64,000 bases of DNA from Azospirillum brasilense (GTDB taxonomy: Bacteria; Pseudomonadota; Alphaproteobacteria; Azospirillales; Azospirillaceae), in the NCBI RefSeq assembly GCF_003349955.1, contig NZ_QLKQ01000011.1, forward strand, positions 1-64,000, given 5' to 3'. Below, one piece after another: positions 6,278 to 59,373 of the stretch (the first letter of the stretch is position 1; each line of letters starts with the position of its first letter). A program made the translations under genes and the position numbers. The notes below the pieces were generated by a model. The model saw only the letters and a program-made list of their open reading frames with translations. It was not told where the DNA came from and made no database searches.

Positions 6278-7588
6278 ATGAGCCGTCTCTTCCATTCCGC
6301 CGCGCCGATGATGGCGGCGATTCTGGGCTTGGCCGGTCTGCCCGCCGCCGCCCTGGCCCAGGATGCGGCCGCCGCCGCGCCGACCCTGAACAGCGGCGAC
6401 ACGGCGTGGATGCTGATGTCCACCGCGCTGGTCCTGCTGATGACCATCCCCGGCCTGGCTCTCTTCTACGGCGGCATGGTCCGCAAGATGAACGTGCTGG
6501 CCACGGTGATGCAGAGCTTCGCGATCTGCTGCATGGTGTCCATCCTGTGGTTCGCCGTCGGCTACAGCATCGCCTTCACCGAGGGCACCCCGTATTTCGG
6601 TTCGCTGTCGAAGTTCATGCTGTCGGGCATCGCCGTCGACAGCCTGCAGGGCACCATTCCGGAGACGCTGTTCGTCGTCTTCCAGATGACCTTCGCGATC
6701 ATCACCCCGGCCCTGATCGCCGGCGCCTTCGCCGACCGCATGAAGTTCTCCTCCATGCTGATCTTCACGGCCCTCTGGTCGGTGCTGATCTACGCGCCGA
6801 TCACCCACTGGGTCTGGGGTCCGGGCGGCTTCCTGGGCGGTGACGGCGTGCTCGACTACGCCGGCGGCACCGTGGTGCACATCAACGCGGGCGTGGCCGG
6901 TCTCGTCGCCGCCATCGTCCTGGGCAAGCGCAAGGGCTACCCGAACGAGAACTTCGCCCCGCACAACCTCGTGCTCAGCCTGATCGGCGCCTCGCTGCTG
7001 TGGGTCGGCTGGTTCGGCTTCAACGCCGGCTCGGCGGTCGCCGCCGATGGCCGTGCGGGCATGGCCATGCTGGTCACGCAGATCGCCGCCGCCGCCGCCG
7101 CCATGGCGTGGATGCTGGTCGAATGGGCCGCCAAGGGCAAGCCGTCGATCCTCGGCATCATCTCCGGTGCGGTCGGCGGTCTGGTCGCCATCACCCCGGC
7201 CGCCGGCTTCGTCGGCCCGACCGGCGCGCTGGTGATCGGTCTCACCTCCGGCGTGATCTGCTACTGGGGCGCCACCGGCCTGAAGCGCTCTCTCGGCTAT
7301 GACGACTCGCTGGACGCCTTCGGCGTGCACGGCGTGGGCGGCATCGTCGGCGCCATCCTGACCGGCGTCTTCGCCCAGGAAGCCATCGGCGGCACCGCCG
7401 GCGCCCTGGAAGGCAACATCGGCCAGATCTGGACGCAGGTCTACGGCATCCTCGCCACCATCGCGTACACCGCCATCGGCTCCTTCATCCTGCTGAAGGT
7501 TGTGGACGTGGTGATCGGCCTGCGCGTGGACGAGGACGTCGAGCGTGACGGCCTGGACCTCGCCCTGCACGGCGAGAGCATCCACTAA
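6278..7588 (+). CDS. amtB: Ammonium transporter AmtB
   Basis: 436 residues. The ATG has a GAGGAG ribosome-binding site 7 bases upstream. A cleavable signal (MSRLFHSAAPMMAAILGLAG... ending ALAQ) leads to an Amt/MEP/Rh channel with about 11 membrane spans. LALFYGGMVRKMN, the pore-histidine segments GGTVVHINAGVAG and DAFGVHGVGG, and WFGFNAGSA are all present. It forms a trimer in the inner membrane that conducts ammonia/ammonium, and in this group it is gated by a GlnB/GlnZ-type PII protein. It is monocistronic, preceded by a sigma-54-type promoter and followed by a strong terminator. No PII gene is adjacent, unlike the usual glnK-amtB pair. Confidence 0.97.
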   Translation: MSRLFHSAAPMMAAILGLAGLPAAALAQDAAAAAPTLNSGDTAWMLMSTALVLLMTIPGLALFYGGMVRKMNVLATVMQSFAICCMVSILWFAVGYSIAFTEGTPYFGSLSKFMLSGIAVDSLQGTIPETLFVVFQMTFAIITPALIAGAFADRMKFSSMLIFTALWSVLIYAPITHWVWGPGGFLGGDGVLDYAGGTVVHINAGVAGLVAAIVLGKRKGYPNENFAPHNLVLSLIGASLLWVGWFGFNAGSAVAADGRAGMAMLVTQIAAAAAAMAWMLVEWAAKGKPSILGIISGAVGGLVAITPAAGFVGPTGALVIGLTSGVICYWGATGLKRSLGYDDSLDAFGVHGVGGIVGAILTGVFAQEAIGGTAGALEGNIGQIWTQVYGILATIAYTAIGSFILLKVVDVVIGLRVDEDVERDGLDLALHGESIH

Positions 7589-9032: not shown

Positions 9033-9884
9033 TCACGCCAAAGGCAACCGGATTTCCGTCAGCCACTCCTCGGGGGGAAGGGTGCGGGGATTGTTCAGAT
9101 ATTCCTCGACGCAAGGGCGGTCGGCCGGCGCGTGGCCGCTCGACGGCAGCCAGTCGCGGTAGAGCCAGCGGTAGGGGCGTTCCAGCTCCGCGTAGGGACC
9201 CTTGTGGATCAGAACGGCGTGCCGGCCGCCGGCGACCTCCAAGGGATGGACGGCGCCGTCCTCGGGGATCGGTCCGTCGAGCATCAAGGCCGCTTCGGAG
9301 CGGAGTCGGTCGGCGGGGACGGATTCCGGGTCGTCGTAATAGACCGCAAAGGCGCGCACCCGCGGTCCCATCAGCCCGCGGGCGGCGGCCCAGGCGTACA
9401 GCCGTTCAAAGGCCGTGCCGATGTCCATGTAGGGGCCGCTGTGGGCCATGGCCGCAAGGCGCAGCGGCGGGAGGTCGCGGATGGTGACGTCGTGCATGCT
9501 TCGCTCCTCGTCCGGTGGTTGGTCGGATGGAGGAACCAGGCGGCCTTGCCGCCGGTAGGCGCCGGGGCTCAGGCCGTAGACCTGCCCGAAGGCGCGGGTG
9601 AACGCCTCCACGCTGCCGTAGCCGGCGCGCCGTGCGACCTGCGCCATGCCGTCTCCGCCCTTCACGAGGTCGCCTGCGGCCCGGTGCAGGCGCAGCCGCC
9701 GCAGCGTGTCCGCCACCGTTTCTCCCGCCATGGCGCGGTAGATGCGGTGGAAGTGGTAGGGCGAGAAGCAGGCGACGGCGGCCAGCCGCTCCAGCTCCAG
9801 CGTCTCGTCCAGATGGGCGGCGATGTGATCGACGACGCGCGCGATGCGGCGGCCGTAGTCCAGCAGGGTGTCGGGCTTGGTCAT
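9033..9884 (-). CDS. AraC-family regulator with GyrI-like effector-binding domain
   Basis: 283 residues. The AraC helix-turn-helix pair is at the N-terminus (about residues 15-110: LAAVACFSPYHFHRIYRAMAG and AGYGSVEAFTRAFGQVYG), and a GyrI-like domain fills the C-terminal half (DVTIRDLPPLRLAAMAHSGPY onward). Proteins of this layout (Rob/SoxS-like with a BmrR/GyrI fold) bind hydrophobic compounds and control efflux or stress genes. It lies between the methyltransferase and the asparaginase, about 55 bases from the end of the latter and on the same strand. Its targets are unknown. Confidence 0.88.
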   Translation of the reverse strand: MTKPDTLLDYGRRIARVVDHIAAHLDETLELERLAAVACFSPYHFHRIYRAMAGETVADTLRRLRLHRAAGDLVKGGDGMAQVARRAGYGSVEAFTRAFGQVYGLSPGAYRRQGRLVPPSDQPPDEERSMHDVTIRDLPPLRLAAMAHSGPYMDIGTAFERLYAWAAARGLMGPRVRAFAVYYDDPESVPADRLRSEAALMLDGPIPEDGAVHPLEVAGGRHAVLIHKGPYAELERPYRWLYRDWLPSSGHAPADRPCVEEYLNNPRTLPPEEWLTEIRLPLA

Positions 9885-9940
9885 GGCTCCTCCATGCCCG
9901 GCACCCTAGCCGAGGGCGGCTTGATCGCGCTTGCGGACCT

Positions 9941-11041
9941 TCAGCCCTCCGCCGGGCGGACCACGCCGACCTCCAGGCCGTTGCGGTTGATCACCGGCTG
10001 GTGAATGAGCTGGCCGGCCCGCGCCCACTGCTCGTCGGACAGGACCTTGGTGGCGCGGATCAGGGCGGCCAGGGCGACCTCGCGGGCGCGCGGGGTGCCG
10101 TCGTCGATCTTCAGGGCGATGCCCAGGCCCTGCTTGGGCAGGACGGCGCAGCCCACGCCTTCGGCTCCGCCCTTGACCAGCACCAGACCGCCCGCCGCCT
10201 GCATCATGCCGGTGTCGAAGCTGTCCTTGCCGGCGATCAGGTGCGGGTGCGACCGCCAGGCGCGGCGGATGCGGGCCACCGCCTCGGCGCGGGAATCGGG
10301 CAGGTCCTTGGGGTCGCCGATGCGGGCCATGGCGTAGGCGATGGCCCCCAGCGGGATGCCGATGGTCGGGATGGCGCAGCCGTCGACGCCCCAAGGGGCC
10401 TGCGACAGGTCCTGGCCGGTCATCTGCTCCATCACGCCCAGGATGCGCTGCTGCACCGGGTGGTCGAAGCGGACATAGCCCTTGGTCGGCTCGCCCTTGT
10501 GCAGGGCGGTGGTCAGGAAGCCGGCATGCTTGCCGGAGCAGTTGTTGTGGAGGGCGGTCGGCGTCTCGCCGTTGCGGATCATCTCGTGGGCGGTCTCGGT
10601 GTCGGTGGGCAGATGCGCCCCGCACTCGTAATCGCCCACGGTCAGGCCGATGCGCTTGATCCAGGCCTCCGCGATGCGGGTGTGGCGGATCTCCCCGTGG
10701 TGGGAGGAGCAGGCCAGAGCCAGCTCCTGGTCGCCCAGCTCGTAGGCGTCGAGCGCGCCCGTCTCGACCAGCGGGATCGCCTGGATCGCCTTGATGGCGG
10801 AGCGCGGGTAGACCGGCGCCTGGATGTCGCCCCATTGGGCCAGCACACGCCCGTCGGAGTCGACGATGCAGGCGCGCCCGCGATGGACGGATTCCACCAT
10901 GCCGCCGCGCGTCACCTCGACGAGGATCGGCGCCTCCGGCGGTCCGGACAGGTCGGCGTGACCCTCGGCGGGGTGGTTATGGTCGGCGTGGCCGTGGTGG
11001 TCACCGTGGCCGCCGCAGCAGGAGGAATGGTCGTGGCTCAT
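9941..11041 (-). CDS. L-asparaginase II family (AnsA/ReAV-like) with His-rich N-terminal extension
   Basis: 366 residues. The core from about residue 36 (PILVEVTRGGMVESVHRGRA) matches the asparaginase II family typified by the inducible Rhizobium etli enzyme, which hydrolyses L-asparagine to aspartate and ammonia. Family motifs are visible: SAIKAIQAIPLVE, LALACSSHHGE, NNCSGKHAG and DGCAIPT. The first 30 residues, MSHDHSSCCGGHGDHHGHAD and beyond, hold about ten histidines and two adjacent cysteines. No methionine exists between this stretch and the core, so it is probably translated. Rhizobium-type asparaginases bind zinc, so the tail may buffer or deliver metal. The start codons of this gene and of the divergent RNA methyltransferase gene are about 130 bases apart. 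Confidence 0.88.
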   Translation of the reverse strand: MSHDHSSCCGGHGDHHGHADHNHPAEGHADLSGPPEAPILVEVTRGGMVESVHRGRACIVDSDGRVLAQWGDIQAPVYPRSAIKAIQAIPLVETGALDAYELGDQELALACSSHHGEIRHTRIAEAWIKRIGLTVGDYECGAHLPTDTETAHEMIRNGETPTALHNNCSGKHAGFLTTALHKGEPTKGYVRFDHPVQQRILGVMEQMTGQDLSQAPWGVDGCAIPTIGIPLGAIAYAMARIGDPKDLPDSRAEAVARIRRAWRSHPHLIAGKDSFDTGMMQAAGGLVLVKGGAEGVGCAVLPKQGLGIALKIDDGTPRAREVALAALIRATKVLSDEQWARAGQLIHQPVINRNGLEVGVVRPAEG

Positions 11042-29121: not shown

Positions 29122-29222
29122 GCCCCCACCCTAACCCTCCCCCGCTCTCGCAGGGGAGGGAACTGCCGCCGCTTCGCAAAATCTCCCTCCCCTGCGAAGC
29201 GGGGGAGGGCCGGGGTGGGGGC
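29122..29222. repeat. Family B palindromic intergenic repeat
   Basis: CCCCCACCCTAACCCTCCCC ... CAGGGGAGGGA, a spacer, then TCCCTCCCCTGCGAAGCGGG and GGGGTGGGGGCA: two inverted halves of one element. Related copies are at 52531-52632 and 61839-61924. It lies between the downstream end of the amino-acid ABC operon and the DMT transporter promoter. Confidence 0.85.
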
Positions 29223-49023: not shown

Positions 49024-52000
49024 TCACTCCGGAAGCTCCATCAGGGCCGGGGTGTCGGTCCACAGCAGGACGCAGCGCACCCGCTTCTCCGGATAGATGG
49101 CGCGCAGCGCCGCGCGGTAGGCCTCCATCTGGCGGACATAGACCGGCGGCACGTCCTCCGCCCGGACCGGCGGCGGGCGGTTGGTCTTGTAGTCGACGAT
49201 CCACACCGCGTCCTCCTCGATCACCAGCCGGTCGACCCGGCCCGACAGGGCGCGCCCGGTCACCAGACCGACCACCTCCACCTCGGCGCGGGAATTGGGG
49301 CCGAACAGGCGGGAAAAGCGCGGGTCGGTCAGGACGCGCATCGTTTCGGATGCGATTTCATCCTGCCGCTCCGCCGTCAGATCGTGGCCGGGGCGGGCGA
49401 GGTAGCGGCGGGCGGCGGCCTCCCGCGCGTCGGGCGGCAGGTCGGGCAGGGTCTGCATCAGCCGGTGGATCAGCAGGCCGCGCTTGAAGCGCGCCCCGTC
49501 GTCCTCGCCCAGCGGCGAGCGCATCGCCGGCTCGTCCCCGTCGGGGCGGGAGGGGGTGAGGGGGCGCGACGGCTCCGGCTCCTCCGGCGCGGTGGCGGTC
49601 AGCCAGGGCGGGGCCTCCTGCGCCGCCAGCACGCGGCCAGCCCCGGCGCCGTCCGGCTTGGGAACGGCGGTCTGCGGGTCGGCCAGCCGCCAGCCCTCGC
49701 CGCTCCAGCCGTCCGGGCAGAGGGTGGAGAAGTCGAAGGGGTGCGGCACGCCGATCTCGCCCATTGCGGCCTCGACCAGCTTGTACCAGCAGGCCTCCGA
49801 CGGCTCCTTCCTGCCCTGGTAGCCGCAGACGTACAGCCGGTCCTCCGCGCGGGTCAGCGCGACGTACAGCAGGCGCCTGTACTCCTGGTCGCGGCGGCGG
49901 TTGGCGCGGGCGCGCGCCTCGGCGCACAGCGCGTCCTCCTGCGAGCGGCGGGCGGCGAAGAGCGGTACGGCGCAGCCCTCGTCCGGCCAGAGGATCGGCG
50001 GACTCTGGGTCGGTGTGCCCAGCGTGTCGGGCAGGAAGACGATGGGGGCCTGGAGCCCCTTCGACCCGTGCACCGTCATGATGCGTACGCGTCCGCCGCC
50101 CTGCTCCAGCTCGCGCTTGATCTCCGCCTCGCTGGCCGCCAGCCAGGCCAGGAAATTCTGGAGAGAGGGCGGCTCGGTCTTCTCGAAGGCCAGGCATACG
50201 GCCAGGAACTCGTCCAGCGGGTCCTGGGCGTCGGGGCCGAGCCGCTTCAGGAGGGCGCGGCGGCCCGAGCCGCCTTCGTCGGCCGGGCAGGGGGCGGCGA
50301 GCAGCCCGGCGAGCAGCTCGTAGGGCGCCAGGAAGTCGGTGCGGGCGAGCTGGCCGCCCAGATAGCGGCGGGCCGGGCGGTAGGCCGGGTCGTCCTCCGC
50401 CTTCGCCACCAGCGCCCGCCACAGCGTGCCGCGCCGCCCGTTGGCGAGGTCGAACAGTTGGTCCTCATTCAGCCCGATCAGCGGCCCCTTGAGGACGGTG
50501 GCCAGCGTCAGGTCGTCTTCCGGCAGCAGCAGGAACTCGCAGAGCGCCATCAGATCCATGACCGCCAGCTGCTCGGTCAGCACCATGCGGTCGACACCGG
50601 CCACCGGAACGGCGCGGTCCTTGAGGGCGCGCACCAGCTCCGTCACGAAGGCGGTGCGGCGGCGGACCAGCACCATGACGTCGCCGGGCTGGATCGGGCG
50701 GCCCCGCGACTCGAGCGACTCGCCGCGTTCGGTCCAGTCGCGGATGGTGTCGGCGATGACCGCGGCCAGCCGGGCCGACGGCGAATCGGTGGCCTCGCGC
50801 TCCACCGGCGGCGCCCAGGCGGGCGGGTCGGCGGCCTCCGCCGGCTTCACCGGGGGCCACAGCTCGACCAGACCGGCATGGCCGCGGCGGAAGGCGCGGT
50901 GACGGATCACCGGGTTCGTTTCGGAAGCGACACCATCCTTGGCGCCGTCCAGCCCGAACACCGCGTCCACCGTTTGCAGCACGGTGGCGGTGGAGCGGAA
51001 GGAGATGTCCAGCGCCACGGCGTGCCAGTCGCGCTCGGCCGCCTTGGCGCGGGTCTGGAAATGGCGGCGCATCCGGGCGAATTCCGCGGGGTCGGCGCGC
51101 TGGAAGCTGAAGATCGACTGCTTCTCGTCGCCCACGGCGAAGACGGTGCGGGTCGTTTCGCCCCCGTCACGGGCGCTGAGGCCGGCGAAGAACTCCTCGG
51201 CGATGGAGCCGACGACCTGCCACTGCTCCGGGTTGGTGTCCTGCGCCTCGTCGATCAGGATGTGGTCCAGCCCGCCGTCCAGCTTGAACAGCACCCAGGG
51301 AACGGCGGGCACGCCGTCCTTGCCGCGCAGCAGGGCGTTGGCCGACAGGATCAGGTCGTCGTAGTCGAGCAGCGCCTTGGCCTTCTTCTTCGCCTCATAG
51401 GCGCTCAGAAGCGACTCGGCCAGGGTCAGCAGCGCGGTGGTGGAGGCCGCGACTCCGGCCGAGCGAACCCGTTTCATCAGCGAAACGAGCCGCTCCGCCT
51501 CGCGCTCCAGCGCCGTCAGGGCGGCGGGGAAGGCGGTTGCCGGCTTCTTGGTGATCAGGGTCTTGCGGGCCCCGCCCTCCGCCGTCAGGAAATGGCGGGC
51601 GTAGATCTGGAAGGCGCGCACCCGGCTGTCCGCGGCGTCGAGCCAGCTCTGGATGCCGACCCCGCGCTCCTCGTCGGTCTTGCTGCCGGTGGACAGAGCC
51701 CGGCAGGCGTCGCGCAGCCCCGGAACGTCGAAGGCGTGGTCGGCGCAGGCCTCGCGCAGGATGGCGGCCTCGGTGATGCCGGGCGGCACGCCCAGCGCCT
51801 CGTGAACCGCGTCCACCGCGCCATCCAGCCCATGGACGCTCTCGAACAGGCGCTGGATGCGCCCGCGCTCGCTGGCCAGTTCGGCCAGGATGTCGGCGAA
51901 CTCCTCGGCGTTCAGCTCGGCGGTCAGGCGGGCCATCGCCTTGCCGAGCGGGCTGTCGGGCGCGGCGCGTCCGGCGTGCAGCACCTCGTCCCGCGCCTCG

Positions 52001-52494
52001 GTCAGCAGGCCGGCGGCGGTGCGCTCGTCCATCACCTCGAAATGCGGGGCGAGCCCGGCCTCCAGTGGGAAGCGGCGCAGCAGCGACTGGCAGAAGGCAT
52101 GGATGGTCTGGATCTTCATGCCGCCCGGACAATCCACCACCTGGGCGAACAGCCGCCGGGCGATGGTGCGGGTCTCGGCGCTCGGCCGCTCGCCGCAGAG
52201 GTCGTAGAGCCGATCCTCCAGCCCCTCATCGGGCAGGGTCGCCCAGATGCCCAGCGTGCGGTTGATGCGGATGGACATCTCCGCCGCCGCCGCCTTGGTG
52301 AAGGTCAGGCAAAGGATGCGCGCCGGCGCGGTGCCGGACAGCATCAGCCGCAGCACGCGGTCGGTCAGCACCTTCGTCTTGCCGGACCCGGCGGAGGCGC
52401 CCACCCACACCGACGACAGCGGGTCGGAGGCGAGGCGCTGCGCGACGTTGGGGTCCAGCGGCAGGTCGCGGACGGGGAAGTCGAGGACGGTCAT
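49024..52494 (-). CDS. addA: Double-strand break repair helicase-nuclease AddA
   Basis: 1156 residues, the alphaproteobacterial AddA type. Walker A VGASAGSGKTKVL (residues 31-43), ILCLTFTKAAAAEM (motif Ia), IDEAQDTNPEQW (motif II) and VMTVHGSKGLQAPIVFLPD (motif V); QEYRRLLYVALTRAEDRLYV is motif VI. The C-terminal nuclease is in GRVDRLVIEEDAVWIVDYKT. AddA works with AddB to resect DNA ends up to Chi-like sites before recombination. In relatives addB lies directly upstream; here the upstream gene is the SDR of an unrelated operon, separated by a family B repeat. Confidence 0.96.
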   Translation of the reverse strand: MTVLDFPVRDLPLDPNVAQRLASDPLSSVWVGASAGSGKTKVLTDRVLRLMLSGTAPARILCLTFTKAAAAEMSIRINRTLGIWATLPDEGLEDRLYDLCGERPSAETRTIARRLFAQVVDCPGGMKIQTIHAFCQSLLRRFPLEAGLAPHFEVMDERTAAGLLTEARDEVLHAGRAAPDSPLGKAMARLTAELNAEEFADILAELASERGRIQRLFESVHGLDGAVDAVHEALGVPPGITEAAILREACADHAFDVPGLRDACRALSTGSKTDEERGVGIQSWLDAADSRVRAFQIYARHFLTAEGGARKTLITKKPATAFPAALTALEREAERLVSLMKRVRSAGVAASTTALLTLAESLLSAYEAKKKAKALLDYDDLILSANALLRGKDGVPAVPWVLFKLDGGLDHILIDEAQDTNPEQWQVVGSIAEEFFAGLSARDGGETTRTVFAVGDEKQSIFSFQRADPAEFARMRRHFQTRAKAAERDWHAVALDISFRSTATVLQTVDAVFGLDGAKDGVASETNPVIRHRAFRRGHAGLVELWPPVKPAEAADPPAWAPPVEREATDSPSARLAAVIADTIRDWTERGESLESRGRPIQPGDVMVLVRRRTAFVTELVRALKDRAVPVAGVDRMVLTEQLAVMDLMALCEFLLLPEDDLTLATVLKGPLIGLNEDQLFDLANGRRGTLWRALVAKAEDDPAYRPARRYLGGQLARTDFLAPYELLAGLLAAPCPADEGGSGRRALLKRLGPDAQDPLDEFLAVCLAFEKTEPPSLQNFLAWLAASEAEIKRELEQGGGRVRIMTVHGSKGLQAPIVFLPDTLGTPTQSPPILWPDEGCAVPLFAARRSQEDALCAEARARANRRRDQEYRRLLYVALTRAEDRLYVCGYQGRKEPSEACWYKLVEAAMGEIGVPHPFDFSTLCPDGWSGEGWRLADPQTAVPKPDGAGAGRVLAAQEAPPWLTATAPEEPEPSRPLTPSRPDGDEPAMRSPLGEDDGARFKRGLLIHRLMQTLPDLPPDAREAAARRYLARPGHDLTAERQDEIASETMRVLTDPRFSRLFGPNSRAEVEVVGLVTGRALSGRVDRLVIEEDAVWIVDYKTNRPPPVRAEDVPPVYVRQMEAYRAALRAIYPEKRVRCVLLWTDTPALMELPE

Positions 52495-52530
52495 GGGCGG
52501 GTCGTACGGTGTGGGGCGGTTTGGTGCTTT

Positions 52531-52632
52531 GCCCCCACCCTCCCGCTTCGCGGGTCCCTCCCTCCCCCGCTGCGCAGGGGAGGGCCAGAATCCCCCTCCC
52601 CTGCGCAGCGGGGGAGGGTTGGGGTGGGGGCA
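52531..52632. repeat. Family B palindromic repeat between addA and the riboswitch operon
   Basis: GCCCCCACCCTCCCGC ... CCTCCCCCGCTGCGCAGGGG, spacer, then CCCCTCCCCTGCGCAGCGGG and GGGGTGGGGGCA. Two inverted halves as in the copy at 29122-29222. It sits exactly where the upstream operon ends. Confidence 0.88.
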
Positions 52633-52636
52633 AGGG

Positions 52637-53404
52637 TCACCCCATCACCAACCCGCCATCCACATACAGCACCTGCCCCGTCATGAAGCGGCTCCAGCCG
52701 GACGCCAGGAACAGCACCGGGCCGGTGACGTCCTCCGGCGTGGCGATGCGGCGCAGCGGGGTCTGGGCGACGATGGCGTCCTTCACGTCCTCCTTCGTCG
52801 TCCGGCTGGCGTCGGTGGGGTAGACCAGCCCCGGCGCCACGCAGTTGACGCGGATGCCCAGCGGCCCCAGCTCCGCCGCCAGATTGCGGCTGAAGCCGAC
52901 CAGCGCCGCCTTGGCCGTCGTGTAGTCGTGATAGGGCACGGTTGGCCGGGCGACGAGGTCGGTCGCCATGTTCACGATGCTGCCGCCCGGCCGCCGCCGC
53001 ATCACCGGCAACACCGCCCGGCAGACGTTGTAGGTGCCGAGCAGCGCCCCATCCACCTGCCCCCGGTAGTCCGCCCACTCGGTGTCCCAGAACAGCGTGC
53101 GCTTCTCCGGGTCGAAGGCGTAGGGGCGGAAGGCGTTGTTCACCACCACGTCGATCTTGCCGAACTCCTCCGCCGTGCGCTCCACCATGCGGTTCACCGC
53201 CTCGGCGTCGGTAACGTCGGCCTGCACCGCCCAGGCGTCGCCGCCGGCCTCCCGGCAGGCCGCCGCCACCGCCTCCGCGGCGTCCGCGTTGCTCAGGTAG
53301 TTGACGGCCACCGCCGCCCCCTCCGCCGCGAAGGCCTTGGCGATGGCGGCGCCGATGCCGCGGCTGGCGCCGGTGACGAGGACGGTCTTGTCGCGGAAAT
53401 CCAT
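52637..53404 (-). CDS. Short-chain dehydrogenase/reductase, last gene of TPP-riboswitch operon
   Basis: 255 residues. VLVTGASRGIGAAIAKAFAA is the NAD(P)-binding TGxxxGIG motif, and YHDYTTAKAALVGF holds the YxxxK catalytic pair. The usual catalytic serine 13 residues before the tyrosine is a threonine here (VNMATDL), which can still work as a hydrogen-bond donor. VNNAFRPYAFDPEKRTLFWD resembles no well-known subfamily I can name. The natural role in this operon would be to reduce an aldehyde to an alcohol or the reverse. It follows the binding-protein gene by 18 bases and ends at a family B repeat. Confidence 0.85.
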   Translation of the reverse strand: MDFRDKTVLVTGASRGIGAAIAKAFAAEGAAVAVNYLSNADAAEAVAAACREAGGDAWAVQADVTDAEAVNRMVERTAEEFGKIDVVVNNAFRPYAFDPEKRTLFWDTEWADYRGQVDGALLGTYNVCRAVLPVMRRRPGGSIVNMATDLVARPTVPYHDYTTAKAALVGFSRNLAAELGPLGIRVNCVAPGLVYPTDASRTTKEDVKDAIVAQTPLRRIATPEDVTGPVLFLASGWSRFMTGQVLYVDGGLVMG

Positions 53405-53422
53405 GGCGGGTTTAAGCCTTCC

Positions 53423-54400
53423 TCACTCGGGGATCAGGTCGGACCGGACCAGCTTGGACATGTCGAGGTCCGTCCCGATCAGGCCGAGCTGCTTGAAGGT
53501 GTCCGCCCCCTTCTGCATCAGGTCCGGGTCGAAGTGGCCGAGGCCCTTGGCCTTGGTCGTCTCCGACACGCTGGAGGCGTTGCGCAGCTTGATGATGGCG
53601 AGGTTGGTGGCCTCGTCGCGGCCGTTGATGGCGCGGGTCACGGCGAGACGGGCGGCCTCCTCCGGCTCGGCGATCATCCAGGCGGCGCTGTCGCGGTAGG
53701 CGGCGAGGAAGCGCTTCAGAACGTCGGCCTTCGTCCGGTAGGTCTCCTCCGTCACCACGAAGATGTCGGAGGGCAGGTTCAGCGTGTCCTTGACCTCGAT
53801 GACGTTGATGTCCTTCAGCCCCTTCTGCATCCCGACATGCAGGCCGGTGTCGGTCGCCGCGGTGGCGTCCACCTGCCCCTGGATGACGGGGGCGAAGTTC
53901 AGCAGGCCGGTCACCTCGATGGTCACGTCCTTCTCGCTCAGCCCCACCTGATGCAGCAGCACCTGGAGGTTCTGGCGAGTGCCGCTGGACAGGCTGTAGA
54001 CGCCGATGCGCTTGCCCTTGAGGTCTTCGGGCTTGGTGATGTTGCGCTCCTTCGGCGACACCACGTTGAAGACGTTCTGCGGGTAGATGTTGTAGATGGC
54101 GATCAGCTTCTCGCCCTTGTCGAGCGCCAGATAGAAGGAGGCCGGGTCGGTGAAGGCCACGTCGGCCTGACCGGTCAGCATGTTCTGGATGGCCGAGCCG
54201 CCGCCGGTCCCCGGCACATAGCCGAGATCGATCCCCTTGGCCCTGAAGAAGCCCTTGTCCGGCTCGGCCAGCAGGTTGGTGATCTCGCTGATCGGCTGGC
54301 TCCAGCCCGCCACGGTCACCGTGTCGAGCGCCAGCGCGGGGGAGGACAGGAGCAGGGCGGAAACGGCGACGGCACCCAAAGTACGCAGGAACCCGAACAT
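53423..54400 (-). CDS. ABC transporter substrate-binding protein, NMT1/ThiY-like
   Basis: 325 residues from the ATG at 54400. Signal peptide MFGFLRTLGAVAVSALLLSS ... ALA. The mature part is an NMT1/SsuA-type protein: VAGWSQPISEITNLLAEPDK, GTGGGSAIQNMLTGQADVAF, GKRIGVYSLSSGTRQNLQVL. This family includes ThiY, which binds thiamine pyrimidine precursors, and also sulfonate and nitrate binders, so the ligand is inferred only from the thiamine riboswitch that controls the operon. It lies seven bases after the permease gene. Confidence 0.85.
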   Translation of the reverse strand: MFGFLRTLGAVAVSALLLSSPALALDTVTVAGWSQPISEITNLLAEPDKGFFRAKGIDLGYVPGTGGGSAIQNMLTGQADVAFTDPASFYLALDKGEKLIAIYNIYPQNVFNVVSPKERNITKPEDLKGKRIGVYSLSSGTRQNLQVLLHQVGLSEKDVTIEVTGLLNFAPVIQGQVDATAATDTGLHVGMQKGLKDINVIEVKDTLNLPSDIFVVTEETYRTKADVLKRFLAAYRDSAAWMIAEPEEAARLAVTRAINGRDEATNLAIIKLRNASSVSETTKAKGLGHFDPDLMQKGADTFKQLGLIGTDLDMSKLVRSDLIPE

Positions 54401-54407
54401 CGTGTGA

Positions 54408-55154
54408 TTATCCTTTCCACGGACGGCGCAGCAGCCACCGCTCAAACCCGGCGGCGGCCTGATAAACGATCATGCCCAGCAGCGTGATGACGATGAACAG
54501 GGCGAACATCATGGTCGAATCCATCATCCCCTGCGCCGCGATGATCGAGGCGCCCAGCCCTTGCCGGCCGCCGATGAACTCACCGACGACGGCGCCGACC
54601 AGCGCCAGCACCACGGCGACGCGCAGGCCCGCCAGGATCACCGGCAGGCCGGAGGGAATCTTCAGGCGCAGCAGGGTTTGCAGGCGCGTCGCCCGCAGCA
54701 TCCGGAACAGCTCCCGCTTGTTGGGATCGACCTGCTGAAGGCCGGTCATGGTGTTTTCCAGAAGCGGGAAGAAGCAGATCAGAGCCGTGATGACGACGGT
54801 GGAGGTCATGCCGAAGCCGAACCAGACGATGAACAGCGGCCCCAGCGCCAGCTTCGGCACCACCTGGCTGGCCAGGATGTAGGGGTAGAACAGGCGGCGC
54901 AGCATCGGCACCTCGGCCAGCAGCACCCCGGCGAGGAAGCCGACGGTGCAGCCGGCGGCGAGGCCCATCGCCATCTCCGCCGTGGTGACCCACAGATGCG
55001 GCAGCAGATAGCCGCCGGCCAGCCCGTCCCACAGCGTGCGCAGCACCGCCGACGGCAGCGGCACGACCAGCGCCGACACCCCCGCCATCCGGCAATAGAC
55101 CTCCCACCCCGCCAGCAGCAGGACGAGCAGCAGGGCGGAGGCGGCACGGACCAT
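54408..55154 (-). CDS. ABC transporter permease, SsuC/ThiX-like
   Basis: 248 residues from the ATG at 55154, overlapping the ATPase stop by one base (an alternative GTG is at 55157). Six spans with the coupling loop LFRMLRATRLQTLLRLKIPS and the EAA-like segment VAVVLALVGAVVGEFIGGRQ. QVVPKLALGPLFIVWFGFGM is typical of the nitrate/sulfonate/pyrimidine permease group. Partner of the binding protein and ATPase. Confidence 0.9.
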   Translation of the reverse strand: MVRAASALLLVLLLAGWEVYCRMAGVSALVVPLPSAVLRTLWDGLAGGYLLPHLWVTTAEMAMGLAAGCTVGFLAGVLLAEVPMLRRLFYPYILASQVVPKLALGPLFIVWFGFGMTSTVVITALICFFPLLENTMTGLQQVDPNKRELFRMLRATRLQTLLRLKIPSGLPVILAGLRVAVVLALVGAVVGEFIGGRQGLGASIIAAQGMMDSTMMFALFIVITLLGMIVYQAAAGFERWLLRRPWKG

Positions 55155-55924
55155 CACGACGCGCGCTCCAACGCCACGTCGGACTTCGAGCCGTCCATGG
55201 CATGGCGCAGCTCCAGGCACAGGGCGTTGAAGCGCGGGCTGTAGCGCACGTCGCGCCCGCGCGGGCGGGCCAGCGGCACCGGCAGGGCGTGGCGCAAGCG
55301 TCCGCCCTCCATCACCGCCACCCGGTCGGCCAGATAGACCGCCTCCGCGATGTCGTGGGTGACGAACAGCACGGTGGTGCGGTGGCGGGCGCAGAGCTTC
55401 AAGAGGTCGTTCTGCAACTCCTCCCGCGTGATGGCGTCGAGCGCGGCGAAGGGCTCGTCGAGCAGGAGCAGCGGCGGCTCGGTGACCAGCGCGCGGGCCA
55501 GCGCGACGCGGCTCTGCTGCCCACCCGACAACTGGCTGGGATAGCGCTCTTCGAGCCCGGTCAGGCCGACGAGGTCCAGCAGTTCCTCCGCCTTGCGGCG
55601 GTCCGCCGGCCGCGGGCGGCGCTCCAGCGACACCGGCAGCAGCAGGTTGTCGAGCACCGTGCGCCACTCCAGCAGTGTCGGCGCCTGGAAGACGAAGCCG
55701 ACCTGGGCGCCCGGCCCCCGCACCGGCTGCCCCTGGATGCGGACGGTTCCGGTCGAGGGGGCCAGCAGCCCGGCGACCAGCTTCAGCAGGGTCGTCTTGC
55801 CGCAACCGCTGCGCCCGACCAGGGCGTGGAACTCGCCCTCCCCGATGGTCCAGTCGATGCGGTCCAGGATGGTGCCGCCGCTCGGGACGCCGTAGCCGGC
55901 CTGCTCGATGCTGACGAAGCTCAT
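55154..55924 (-). CDS. ABC transporter ATP-binding protein, SsuB/ThiZ-like
   Basis: 256 residues. Walker A VGRSGCGKTTLLK, signature SQLSGGQQSRVALARAL, Walker B LLLLDEPFAALD, H-loop FVTHDIAEAV. VGFVFQAPTLLEWRTVLDNL is characteristic of the SsuB/TauB/ThiZ group. It energises uptake of the operon's substrate. Ten bases after the LuxC-like gene. Confidence 0.93.
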   Translation of the reverse strand: MSFVSIEQAGYGVPSGGTILDRIDWTIGEGEFHALVGRSGCGKTTLLKLVAGLLAPSTGTVRIQGQPVRGPGAQVGFVFQAPTLLEWRTVLDNLLLPVSLERRPRPADRRKAEELLDLVGLTGLEERYPSQLSGGQQSRVALARALVTEPPLLLLDEPFAALDAITREELQNDLLKLCARHRTTVLFVTHDIAEAVYLADRVAVMEGGRLRHALPVPLARPRGRDVRYSPRFNALCLELRHAMDGSKSDVALERAS

Positions 55925-55934
55925 GGCCGGCGCC

Positions 55935-57398
55935 TCAATCCGTGTAGGGGGCGAACGCGTCCGCCGCCCGTTCCGCCGAGCCTTCGATCTCGGTCATGGT
56001 GACGAGGTCCAGCAGGTTGAACCGCCCGTCATGGTGCCAGCCCGCCTCGGGCGCGGTCATGCGGCCGAGCGCGCAGAGGCGCGTCACCCCGACCGCCCCC
56101 AGCGCCCCGGCGAGCGCGAACAGCTCCTCCGGCGACGCGGCGATGCCAACGGTCTGGAGGAAGGCGCGGTAGGGCGCCAGCCCCGGCACCGCCTCGGCCA
56201 GCCGGTCCACCGCCACCACCGTCACCGTGCGGTTCAGGCCGCATGGCGAGAGGCCGTCCGCCGCGTCGGTGTAGGCGACGGCCCAGCTTCCCGCCGGATC
56301 GCCCAGCAGGGCGCGGCTGGGGTCGGCAAAGCCCTTCGTCTCCTCCGCGTTGCGCCAGGACGCGACGCTGCCCGCCTCGCCCATCGACAGGGGGCGGCGC
56401 GGGAACTTGCTGCCCAGCGCGTCCAGCTCGTGCGCCAGATAGCCGGCGAATTCGCGCGGCGACACCCGCCCGCCACGCTCCACGAAAAAGGTCTGGGGCG
56501 AGTAGCAGCCTTGCTGGTCGTAGCGCGCCACGTCGTAGGCCGCCTGCCGCGCCGCCGCCCCCGCCTTCCCGGCGTCGAGCGCGGAGCGGGCGACCATGGC
56601 GAAGCTGATCTTGTGCCCGTAGGGCAGGAAGCGCGTGGTGATCGGCACCCGCGCCCGGATGGCCTCCAGCGCGTCGTTGCCGCCATAGGCGACCACCGTG
56701 TCGGCACGGGTCAGCCACGCGCGTTCCGCCGCCACGTCGCCGCCCTTCCACCAGACGATGGCGATGCAGTCGGCCAGTTTGGGGTCGATCTCCGCCAGGA
56801 TTTGCGCGAACCAGCCGGCGAACAGCGGCTCGGCGCTCGGCAGCTTGCCAACCGTTCCGGCCTTGACCAGCAGGCCGGAAATCAGGCTCCACAGCGGCAG
56901 GCCCGGCACGTTGCCCGCCCAGACATGCAGCAGAAGCTCCGGCCCGAAGGCGCGGGCGAAGCCGCCCTTGGGCATGGGCTGGAAATCGTCGAGCACCGCC
57001 GGGTTGGCGAAATCCTCGGCGATGAACTTCCGCAGCTCCGGCCCACGGAAGGTCTTCAGATAGCCGGTCAGCCCCAGCCGGACCATTTCGGCGTCGTAGC
57101 CGGTGACCAGCGGCAGCAGCCGTTCCGCCTTTTGCCGCCACGGGTCGCCGCGGTCGAGCAGCCGGGCGACGGCGCGGTCGATGGTGGCGGCGATCTCGGC
57201 CACGGTGCGGCTTTTCAGGTAAATCCGCGCGTTGGCGCGCACCCGCGTTGCCAATTCGGCGACCTGCGCCTCGCTCAGCACCGGCACCGCCACGTCGAGC
57301 GTCTCGGCGCCGCGCCGGAAGGTCAGCGTCCGCCAGTCCACCGCGTCGGCGGACAGCCCCGGCAGATGCCCGGCGCGCTCCATCACGCCAACGGTCAT
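55935..57398 (-). CDS. LuxC-like acyl-CoA/acyl-protein reductase
   Basis: 487 residues, LuxC family (aldehyde-dehydrogenase-like). The ATG at 57398 overlaps the upstream stop by four bases. HVWAGNVPGLPLWSLISGLL and VAYGGNDALEAIRARVPITT match the NAD(P)H-binding part; YDQQGCYSPQTFFVERGG carries the catalytic cysteine (Cys298) that takes the acyl group. LuxC in luminous bacteria reduces an activated fatty acid to an aldehyde together with LuxE. No luxA, luxB or luxD is present and the operon is under a thiamine riboswitch, so the substrate is probably a different carboxylate. Confidence 0.88.
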   Translation of the reverse strand: MTVGVMERAGHLPGLSADAVDWRTLTFRRGAETLDVAVPVLSEAQVAELATRVRANARIYLKSRTVAEIAATIDRAVARLLDRGDPWRQKAERLLPLVTGYDAEMVRLGLTGYLKTFRGPELRKFIAEDFANPAVLDDFQPMPKGGFARAFGPELLLHVWAGNVPGLPLWSLISGLLVKAGTVGKLPSAEPLFAGWFAQILAEIDPKLADCIAIVWWKGGDVAAERAWLTRADTVVAYGGNDALEAIRARVPITTRFLPYGHKISFAMVARSALDAGKAGAAARQAAYDVARYDQQGCYSPQTFFVERGGRVSPREFAGYLAHELDALGSKFPRRPLSMGEAGSVASWRNAEETKGFADPSRALLGDPAGSWAVAYTDAADGLSPCGLNRTVTVVAVDRLAEAVPGLAPYRAFLQTVGIAASPEELFALAGALGAVGVTRLCALGRMTAPEAGWHHDGRFNLLDLVTMTEIEGSAERAADAFAPYTD

Positions 57399-58474
57399 TG
57401 GGCCCGCGCCGCTTTGAGGAAGTCCTCGACCGCCATGGAGCAGCCCTTGGCGTCCGCCCCGTCGGCCCGGCCGAGAAGCTGGAAGCCGCCCTCCACCTCG
57501 ACCCCCGCATCCTCGGTCAGGATGGCCGACGCGCAGTTGAAATGGGCCAGATCGTGATGGACCAGCACGCCGACGCTGCCGCGCGGCACCTCCTGCCCGG
57601 TCAGCGGGTTGATGACCCGGCTGCGGATCCAGTGCGGGCCGGACTTCACCGACGGGCAGGCCTCGTTGCCGTCGTCGTAGAACTGGGTGCTCAGCTCCGT
57701 CATGCCGTACATGTTGATGCACAGACGGCGCGGCACGCCGAAGGTGGCGGACAGGCGGCCGTAGAACTCCTCCGCCGCCATCTCGCGCGACTGGCCCTTG
57801 AAGCCGCCGGTGTCGAGGATGCGGCTGCCCGGCGGCAAGGCGAAGCTCCGCCCCCGCTCGGCCAGCGCGTCCATCAGATGCACGACGCTGAAGCTCGCCC
57901 CCAGCAGGGCGTAGGGTTCGCCGGTCGCCTCGACGCGGGACAGCGCCTCGATCGCCCCGTCCACGTCCAGCCCGGCGTCGGAGACGAAATAGCGGCTCTC
58001 ATCCGTCCCGAATTCGCTCTTGGCCAGCGCCAGATAATGGGCGAGCGAGGAGTTGGGCATCGCCTGCTCGGTCGGGAACAGGATGCCCATGCGCAGCCGA
58101 TCATGCTCACCCATAAAGCGGCGGCGGAAGTTGACGGTCATCGAGCGGTCGTAGACCGCCAGCGTCGGGTGGTGGCTCTTGCCCCGCACGCCCTTGGTGG
58201 TGCCGCTGGTCATGAAGACGTGCGGGCATTCCTCCGGCGGGCGGCCGCTCAGCGTCAGGTCCTTGAAGGCGCTGATCGGCACGGCGGGCACGTCGCGCCA
58301 GCTCTTCACCGTGCGCAGGGTGCGCGCCCGCTGGGTGGCGAAGCGGCGGTAGGGGGCGTTGGTCTCGAACTGGTGGGCGAAGACGGCCAGCGCCATGCGG
58401 TTGAACGCCTCCTCGTCCGCCTTTCCGGCGGCGATGAAGGCCAGCAGCTCTTCGACAAGTCGGGCTTCGGTCAC
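57395..58474 (-). CDS. LuxE-like acyl-activating enzyme (acyl-protein synthetase family)
   Basis: 359 residues with a GTG start, 93 bases downstream of the TPP riboswitch. Adenylate-forming core: HVFMTSGTTKGVRGKSHH (the SGTTKG loop, residues 90-95) and CINMYGMTELSTQFYDDGNE. RADGADAKGCSMAVEDFL near the end holds Cys345, in the position where LuxE carries its acyl-thioester. It should activate a carboxylic acid with ATP and pass it to the LuxC-like partner. First gene of the operon. Confidence 0.88.
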   Translation of the reverse strand: MTEARLVEELLAFIAAGKADEEAFNRMALAVFAHQFETNAPYRRFATQRARTLRTVKSWRDVPAVPISAFKDLTLSGRPPEECPHVFMTSGTTKGVRGKSHHPTLAVYDRSMTVNFRRRFMGEHDRLRMGILFPTEQAMPNSSLAHYLALAKSEFGTDESRYFVSDAGLDVDGAIEALSRVEATGEPYALLGASFSVVHLMDALAERGRSFALPPGSRILDTGGFKGQSREMAAEEFYGRLSATFGVPRRLCINMYGMTELSTQFYDDGNEACPSVKSGPHWIRSRVINPLTGQEVPRGSVGVLVHHDLAHFNCASAILTEDAGVEVEGGFQLLGRADGADAKGCSMAVEDFLKAARAQ

Positions 58475-58566
58475 GTCCGCACACCTTTTGCAGCGCCAAC
58501 AAACTGTTGCCGGGACAAGCGGTGTCTGGATGGAATGGGGGTACGCCGTGCCGCCCTTCAGTCCCG

Positions 58567-58672
58567 TCCCTACGCCGGTATGACCCGGATCAGGTTCGAT
58601 GGGTCACCGCGTTGTCCGGATGAAAGCGCCGGACCGGCGGAGTCTCAGCCTCCTAGCGAGGCCCCCCAGGGA
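58567..58672 (-). promoter_or_regulatory. TPP (THI-box) riboswitch
   Basis: On the minus strand TCCCTGGGGGGCCTCGCTAG leads into GGAGGCTGAGA (CTGAGA at 58648-58643), then a variable stem, and GTGACCCATCGAACCTGATC (core at 58588-58595) with CCGGGTCATACCGGCGTAGG ending in AGGGA, which pairs with the opening TCCCT as stem P1. All conserved TPP-sensor segments are present. A 93-base leader to the LuxE-like GTG start holds the expression platform; GGGAC and GTCCC blocks there could form alternative pairings. High TPP should lower expression. Confidence 0.95.
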
Positions 58673-58680
58673 ACATTCGC

Positions 58681-58709
58681 AAGCTAAGGGACCGGCCCCC
58701 GCCCGTCAA
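58681..58709 (-). promoter_or_regulatory. Sigma-70 promoter of the riboswitch operon
   Basis: On the minus strand TTGACG, 17 bases, TAGCTT. The expected start is near 58674, so the transcript begins almost exactly at riboswitch stem P1. Confidence 0.6.
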
Positions 58710-58745
58710 GGAGGTCGGGTTTAGGGTAAGACCCTCGCATCTGGA

Positions 58746-58772
58746 TTCCCCTCTCCCCAGGGGGGAGAGGGT
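58746..58772. repeat. Family A repeat, minimal copy
   Basis: CCCCTCTCCCCAGGGGGGAG-type palindrome, about 27 bases, between the upstream methyltransferase stop and the riboswitch operon promoter. It is the core arm of the family without the extra blocks. Confidence 0.65.
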
Positions 58773-58800
58773 TGCTAATGCCATATGCAATTCCCCGGAT

Positions 58801-59373
58801 TCAGGCCGCCTTCACCACCTCCAGGACCATGGCGATCTCGTCGATGACGTTGTTCTGGCTCTCCATCGCCTCCATCACCTCCTGGTTCGAGACCTCCCCG
58901 GAGGCCAGCTTGTGGTGCCAGCGCGGGGTCGGGGCGTAGGCGATCGACAGGATGCGGAAATCGACGTTCAGATGCATCGCCAGGCGGGTGTTCGGCCAGC
59001 CGCGTTCGATGAATTTCCGGTTCTCCTCCATCGAGAACAGGCTCAGCACGTTGGGCGTGATCGGGCGGACGTGGGTCGGGTCGCCGAGATAGCCGTCGCT
59101 GCGCGGGTGCGGCACCTTGATGGTGATCCGCGCGCCGTGGCGGCAGACGCGGTACAGCTCCCTCATGATGTTCAGGAACCCCTCGGTCGTCTGGCCCATA
59201 TGCTCCAGGGCGTGGATGAGCTGGACGTCGGCGACGCTGCCTTCCTCGAACGGCCAGGGCACGACCTCCAGGTCGGCCACGATGTCCGGCCCGAACGTGC
59301 CGTACTTGTCCACGTTGACGTAGCCGGGCATCCGGGTGTCGCCGCAGCCGAGGTTGAGCTTGAGGTCCGTCAT
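58801..59373 (-). CDS. Class I SAM-dependent methyltransferase
   Basis: 190 residues. LKLNLGCGDTRMPGYVNVDK is SAM motif I, followed by DIVADLEVVPWPFEEGSVAD and LIHALEHMGQTTEGFLNIMR, typical of methylases acting on sugars or lipid-like substrates. Substrate unknown. It precedes the riboswitch operon on the same strand but is separated from it by a family A repeat and a promoter, so it is probably not part of it. It follows the M20 gene by 45 bases. Confidence 0.85.
   Translation of the reverse strand: MTDLKLNLGCGDTRMPGYVNVDKYGTFGPDIVADLEVVPWPFEEGSVADVQLIHALEHMGQTTEGFLNIMRELYRVCRHGARITIKVPHPRSDGYLGDPTHVRPITPNVLSLFSMEENRKFIERGWPNTRLAMHLNVDFRILSIAYAPTPRWHHKLASGEVSNQEVMEAMESQNNVIDEIAMVLEVVKAA

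Follow-up and report, generated by a model that had tools for sequence, protein, structure and literature searches.

A 64,000-nucleotide stretch of Azospirillum brasilense DNA (positions 1 to 64,000 of contig NZ_QLKQ01000011.1, hereafter the window) contains a thiamin pyrophosphate (TPP) riboswitch at the head of six co-oriented genes, which encode a LuxE-like and a LuxC-like enzyme, an ATP-binding cassette (ABC) transporter with its substrate-binding protein (SBP), and a short-chain dehydrogenase/reductase (SDR). From the riboswitch downstream the features are:

58549..58678, minus strand: TPP riboswitch aptamer (RF00059; cmscan 70.6 bits, gathering score 54.3)
57395..58474, minus strand: LuxE-like acid-activating, acyl-protein synthetase-like enzyme, 359 amino acids, GTG start (PF04443; predicted acyl-acceptor Cys345 in KGCS)
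55935..57398, minus strand: LuxC-like acyl-thioester reductase, 487 amino acids (PF05893, 291 bits; predicted catalytic Cys298)
55154..55924, minus strand: ABC transporter ATPase (PF00005)
54408..55157, minus strand: ABC transporter permease (PF00528, BPD_transp_1)
53423..54400, minus strand: NMT1/THI5-like (ThiY-like) SBP (PF09084, 160 bits; reading frame open to 54445)
52637..53404, minus strand: SDR, 255 amino acids, predicted aldehyde-to-alcohol reductase (PF13561, adh_short_C2, 218 bits; Tyr161/Lys165)

The riboswitch match exceeds the gathering score and spans the full length of the model (1-105 of 105 positions), in agreement with a preliminary description of this DNA that had placed a complete TPP riboswitch at the head of the operon. 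On the basis of this family match the element is predicted to bind TPP and to control expression. It lies 74 bases upstream of luxE. The compact arrangement given in that description was recovered from the open reading frame (ORF) coordinates, with Pfam supporting the gene families: no overlap or gap exceeds 18 bases. The luxE and luxC genes overlap in ATGA, 10 bases separate luxC from the ATPase gene, the ATPase and permease genes overlap by about 4 bases, and gaps of 7 and 18 bases precede the SBP and SDR genes, respectively. By eye the N-terminus of the SBP resembles a signal peptide. The promoter that had been proposed was not recovered, as a sigma-70 consensus scan of 52400-58900 gave neither promoter-like nor terminator-like sites; the TTGACG-TTAGCT pair upstream of the riboswitch was recognized by eye only. 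Folding of the leader was no more stable than that of shuffled sequences (z -0.26) and therefore no expression platform is claimed. The reported absence of luxA, luxB and luxD holds among the six operon genes, no whole-genome search for them having been made.

The enzymes encoded by the first two genes belong to the LuxE and LuxC families in the broad sense. LuxE scored 71.4 bits against PF04443 (cut-off 24.9) and LuxC 291 bits against PF05893 (cut-off 21). Both failed the NCBIfam equivalog models, with 78.5 bits for LuxE against NF052244 (long-chain-fatty-acid protein ligase; cut-off 550) and 75.9 bits for LuxC against NF052251 (fatty-acyl reductase; cut-off 750). The register of the catalytic residues was taken from 7xc6, the sole LuxC-LuxE structure found by sequence search. 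Cys345 of LuxE (KGCS) aligns with the acyl-acceptor cysteine of the 7xc6 LuxE, and Cys298 of LuxC (QQGCYS) with the catalytic cysteine of its LuxC (QQxCxS). For comparison with relatives, named genomes were scanned with 23 aligned LuxE proteins, which gave 405 loci; the best 80 of these were kept and underlie all counts out of 80. In an alignment of 84 LuxE and LuxC proteins (the window, the 80 loci and three Bacillota plasmids) Cys345 is invariant, and so is Cys298, whose presence had been noted before.

The SDR shows the hallmarks of a classical SDR, namely TGxxxGIG, the catalytic Asn, Ser/Thr and YxxxK. Gly12, Arg15, Asn89, Tyr161 and Lys165 are kept in all 82 aligned sequences and position 148 is Ser in 58 and Thr in 24 of them. 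The conservation of catalytic residues in the three enzymes fits a conversion of acid to aldehyde to alcohol, which the three activities together would give, the order being the one that the enzyme families suggest. A structure model of LuxE, of middling quality (pLDDT 77.7), had PaaK and aryl-acid ligases as nearest folds, and the 7xc6 LuxE was not among the best 50 matches listed. This modelled fold likeness fits an aromatic acid as substrate but is no proof of it.

The preliminary description had called for a search for luxE-luxC pairs behind TPP riboswitches and regarded loss of this association in relatives as evidence against its proposal. In the 80 loci luxC adjoins luxE throughout, starting at most 52 bases from the luxE end, and a riboswitch signature is kept in 78. 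A TPP pattern was found upstream of luxE in 76 of these. As a control, 2687 further 480-base stretches from the 80 loci gave 33 matches, some of which may be real riboswitches; the association thus exceeds chance. The remaining two signatures are model matches of 63.6 bits (L062) and 52.9 bits (L101, just below gathering). The Rfam RF00059 model was applied to 28 of the 80 loci, in place of a purpose-built TPP covariance model whose seed alignment was poor. Of the 28, 21 passed the gathering score, 5 more were significant below it, and L071 and L089 gave nothing. L089 begins 143 bases upstream of luxE and has only an apparent 3' end of the element.

The gene order is identical across all 80 loci. 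The SDR gene is present in 78, and the two loci without it (L083 and L102) stop at contig edges. Genes past the SDR differ from locus to locus and gave no clue to the substrate. Among uncultured Alphaproteobacteria, both with and without transporter genes, a small secreted-looking ORF starts right at the SDR end (L049, 13450-13998; L056, 15801-16325); the L049 copy has no Pfam match. A search of the 80 loci for ThiC, ThiO, ThiG and ThiE yielded ThiC in a single locus, L078, and in L068 a weak match to a ThiO-like FAD oxidoreductase.

By record title the 80 loci include Alphaproteobacteria (Azospirillum, Bosea, Azorhizobium, Methylobacterium and uncultured members), Betaproteobacteria (Polaromonas, Curvibacter), Gammaproteobacteria (Pantoea, Erwinia, Enterobacter) and Bacillota (Geobacillus, Domibacillus). 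Within the order of the window genome a strong LuxE match occurs in 22 of 45 genomes of the same genus and in none of 37 others, and 8 of 387 sampled Alphaproteobacteria have LuxE. In the luxE tree the enterobacterial copies fall inside a supported clade (100/98) that otherwise consists of Bosea and other Hyphomicrobiales, and plasmid-borne copies occur in Pantoea, Azospirillum, Priestia, Niallia and lactobacilli (27 plasmid records). The luxE operon looks like a patchy trait that is apparently mobile. A luxE from a Flavobacteriales metagenome-assembled genome (MAG; TMED123, L096) is sister to the alphaproteobacterial L082 in the tree; its contig may be mis-binned.

The thiamin (thi) genes were counted in the 50 carrier genomes behind loci chosen from the 80, with some counts out of 51. 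The window genome (7.1 Mb) has three TPP sites: at the luxE operon, before thiC, and before thiO-thiS-thiG. ThiD is also present. ThiO was assigned from the order of the genes and from likeness between the loci, the Pfam match being to FAD-dependent oxidoreductases. With thiC and thiO-thiS-thiG, this genome has its own 4-amino-5-hydroxymethyl-2-methylpyrimidine (HMP) and thiazole synthases, so that the operon is an addition rather than a patch. The co-occurrence with thiC and thiD that the preliminary description had suggested examining is informative elsewhere. ThiC matches were found in 37 of 50 carriers and none in the other 13, which are mostly uncultured Alphaproteobacteria together with one Burkholderiaceae MAG (G126). 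Ten of these 13 have a strong ThiG (E <1e-90), with weak matches only in G088, G091 and G120. ThiD is above cut-off in all of the 13 except G120. Most of the carriers in which ThiC was not found are thus equipped to produce thiazole phosphate and to phosphorylate HMP.

The riboswitch precedes luxE in all 13 thiC-less carriers (53.6 bits in G126, just below gathering), and in seven a second TPP site lies beside thiO; in G091 a second riboswitch is found 88 bases from a contig end. ThiE was read in the loci of G089, G094 and G118 only. G089 matches G399 (listed completeness 99%), G093 matches G463 and G118 matches G324 (98% each); the other thiC-less carriers are MAGs of unlisted completeness and single absences are therefore to be read with care. 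G089 is a single closed contig. Of the two TPP sites detected in it, one (69.6 bits) heads luxE-luxC-SDR and the other (51.2 bits, below gathering) thiO-thiG-thiE, so the luxE operon stands at the place expected for thiC. Of the 27 genomes in the order to which G089 belongs, 18 have a LuxE match and one has a ThiC match. The sole ThiC carrier, G109 (L152), has riboswitch-thiC directly upstream of riboswitch-luxE. None of the 13 carriers without ThiC gave a ThiM match, and thiamin pyrophosphokinase was found in 2 of 51 carriers, both Bacillota. Taken together, the lack of ThiC in 13 genomes that mostly retain ThiG and ThiD and lack ThiM, and the absence of the pyrophosphokinase from 49 of 51 carriers, point to HMP, the pyrimidine half of thiamin.

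The transporter genes give a further indication of the substrate. The SBP has an NMT1 domain and a ThiY-type fold, nearest to ThiY that binds N-formyl-4-amino-5-aminomethyl-2-methylpyrimidine (FAMP; 3ix1) and to a thiamin-bound SBP (4nmy); Foldseek ranked the latter first and VIA-align ranked it second. From domain and fold it is predicted to be a ThiY-like binder of thiamin pyrimidines. The ABC ATPase gene is present in 63 of the 80 loci. On two lactobacillus plasmids and in Niallia, with TPP riboswitches upstream, a purine/pyrimidine permease of the NCS2 family takes the place of the ABC genes; this carrier passes NF037981 (purine/pyrimidine permease) and scores below the xanthine-permease and NCS2-superfamily cut-offs. 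The Niallia taxi plasmid pMEGANia (L176) carries two tandem TPP riboswitches at 6697-6993 (85.0 and 72.9 bits), which head a ThiW-NCS2-luxE-luxC-SDR operon. In the thiC-less G101 a second TPP riboswitch (77.3 bits; L150, G101:C230, 1-454) heads another ABC ATPase gene that is cut by the contig end.

The preliminary description had left open whether the salvaged fragment was a pyrimidine carboxylate, a thiazole acid or thiamine acetic acid. The thi genes, the SBP fold and the nucleobase-family permease narrow this to the pyrimidine. Reduction of 4-methylthiazole-5-acetic acid to 4-methyl-5-(2-hydroxyethyl)thiazole (HET) would fit the acid-aldehyde-alcohol chemistry equally well, and some carriers have a full-length ThiM (over 250 bits in 9 of 51 genomes; 17 of 51 over cut-off). 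However, HET needs ThiM, which is missing from the thiC-less carriers and has no match over cut-off in the window genome. The thiazole synthase of 10 of the 13 thiC-less carriers moreover means that thiazole is not the missing part, and thiazole would be an unusual cargo for a nucleobase permease of the NCS2 family. Salvage of thiazole is thus quite unlikely. Repair of whole thiamin, by reduction of thiamine acetic acid, draws on the rank of 4nmy among the SBP folds. Against it, the pyrophosphokinase was not found in 49 of 51 carriers (thiamin kinase ThiK lay outside that search), and the ThiG and ThiD of most thiC-less carriers would be needless if whole thiamin were obtained. NCS2 permeases are, to our knowledge, not known to carry thiamin. 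We consider this option highly improbable.

A different question is where the acid comes from. ABC genes are missing from 17 of the 80 loci, and in one thiC-less genome (G088) they form a locus of their own behind a riboswitch. Seven thiC-less genomes, G089 among them, lack a close SBP yet retain the riboswitch, luxE, luxC and the SDR gene, and on the luxE tree the transporter-less state must have changed at least four times. This would suit an acid made inside the cell, the three enzymes forming the last stage of a thiC-independent synthesis or recycling of HMP to which the transporter is an optional extra. On the other hand, most loci do have a dedicated transporter, an unrelated one substitutes in the three Bacillota plasmids, no candidate gene for making the acid was seen in the operons, and further transporters may exist. 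Internal production is therefore unlikely.

The explanation we consider probable is that the riboswitch-headed luxE-luxC-(ABC transporter)-SDR unit imports 4-amino-2-methylpyrimidine-5-carboxylate and reduces it in two steps to HMP. This acid is a known thiamin oxidation product in animals. Substrate, products and the direction of reduction are what we infer from the comparative evidence. At low TPP the riboswitch would permit expression of the operon, and the ThiY-like SBP and ABC transporter, or the NCS2-family permease in lactobacilli and Niallia, would import the pyrimidine acid. LuxE would adenylate the carboxylate and take the acyl group onto Cys345, from where it would pass to Cys298 of LuxC for reduction with NAD(P)H to the 5-formyl pyrimidine. 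The SDR would then reduce this aldehyde to HMP, to be phosphorylated by ThiD and joined to thiazole phosphate by ThiE. Carriers without thiC would have in the operon a main source of HMP, and those with thiC, the window genome included, would be spared the costly ThiC reaction. The combination of TPP control, import and reduction of a carboxylate to an alcohol, as set out in the preliminary description, is thus supported by comparative genomics.

Several observations weigh against this explanation. Most carriers (37 of 50) keep thiC. Nine genomes of the order of G089 (G132, G133, G138, G140, G141, G142, G145, G146 and G148) have neither ThiC nor LuxE matches, so that loss of thiC alone does not demand a luxE operon; two of the nine are only 1.3-1.4 Mb. 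L071 has no riboswitch before luxE (9500-10060) by either pattern or Rfam model, and in the Niallia operon ThiW, which would favor thiazole salvage, sits with luxE-luxC-SDR. Of the 80 loci L071 alone lacks a riboswitch despite sufficient upstream DNA, and its genome, G106, shows ThiC as four overlapping partial matches. The acid might also be unrelated to thiamin, its aldehyde or alcohol serving another purpose and TPP being a mere regulatory signal. LuxE/LuxC and FabG-like SDRs are broad families, and proteins with the SBP fold bind several kinds of ligand. Retention of the TPP riboswitch across phyla and operon forms, the presence of the rest of the thiamin pathway in most thiC-less carriers, and the location of the luxE operon next to riboswitch-thiC in G109 make this very unlikely.

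A more far-reaching proposal, which we put forward tentatively and regard as rather doubtful, is that LuxE-LuxC-SDR, by reducing a pyrimidine carboxylate to HMP, represents a third route to the thiamin pyrimidine, independent of ThiC and THI5, which is plasmid-mobile, crosses phyla and acts as a stand-in for thiC as HMP source in an uncultured alphaproteobacterial order. Members that lack the transporter would perhaps make or regenerate the acid inside the cell, giving a new biosynthetic or recycling route to HMP beyond salvage.

Downstream of the SDR gene the next gene is addA (49024-52494, TIGR02784), with a palindromic repeat in the 142-base gap. The repeat (52570-52608) consists of two perfectly inverted 15-base arms (CTGCGCAGGGGAGGG). 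It has near copies at 29185 and 61887, which suggests that the palindrome is a dispersed element, yet 4 matches were reached in 2 of 100 shuffles.

Among the papers listed in literature searches, no title or opening of an abstract dealt with carboxylate reduction in thiamin salvage, though an earlier mention is possible in supplements, subscription papers or RegPrecise tables. In the portion of the main text of PMC3766115 that was available, "lux" did not occur. If the proposed function is correct, a pyrimidine carboxylate that is absent from the vitamer lists examined enters the cycle of vitamin B1, and a specific role falls to many proteins whose current annotation is long-chain fatty acid--CoA ligase or acyl-CoA reductase.

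The closest known enzyme system is the fatty acid reductase that LuxC and LuxE form in bioluminescent bacteria (7xc6). The window enzymes share with it the predicted acid activation by LuxE and thioester reduction by LuxC, and the register of both catalytic cysteines. They differ from it in scoring far below the LuxE and LuxC equivalog cut-offs, in their operon context with a TPP riboswitch and no luxA, luxB or luxD, in an SDR predicted to carry the reaction to the alcohol, and in a predicted heteroaromatic substrate. A comparable purpose is served by the ThiXYZ/YlmB/TenA route, which salvages FAMP and 4-amino-5-aminomethyl-2-methylpyrimidine (AmMP) from base-degraded thiamin. That route is hydrolytic, whereas the window operon would reach the same end reductively through LuxE, LuxC and the SDR, starting from a predicted carboxylate. 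No family match to the YlmB deformylase or the TenA hydrolase was found among the six operon genes, the rest of the genome not having been searched. CytX/ThiV-type transport of HMP is named in connection with thiamin metabolism in PMC12236431 and PMC10881298. These transporters resemble the carrier of the lactobacillus and Niallia luxE operons in its predicted role as a secondary carrier for a thiamin pyrimidine, but CytX belongs to the nucleobase-carrier family NCS1, while the luxE-associated carrier is of the NCS2 family and is encoded together with reducing enzymes. Carboxylic acid reductases (CAR) use a phosphopantetheine arm. In contrast to these, and to the PaaK-type aryl-acid ligases that LuxE resembles in fold, the window operon encodes LuxE and LuxC as separate proteins with predicted cysteine relays and would operate without a phosphopantetheine arm or CoA.

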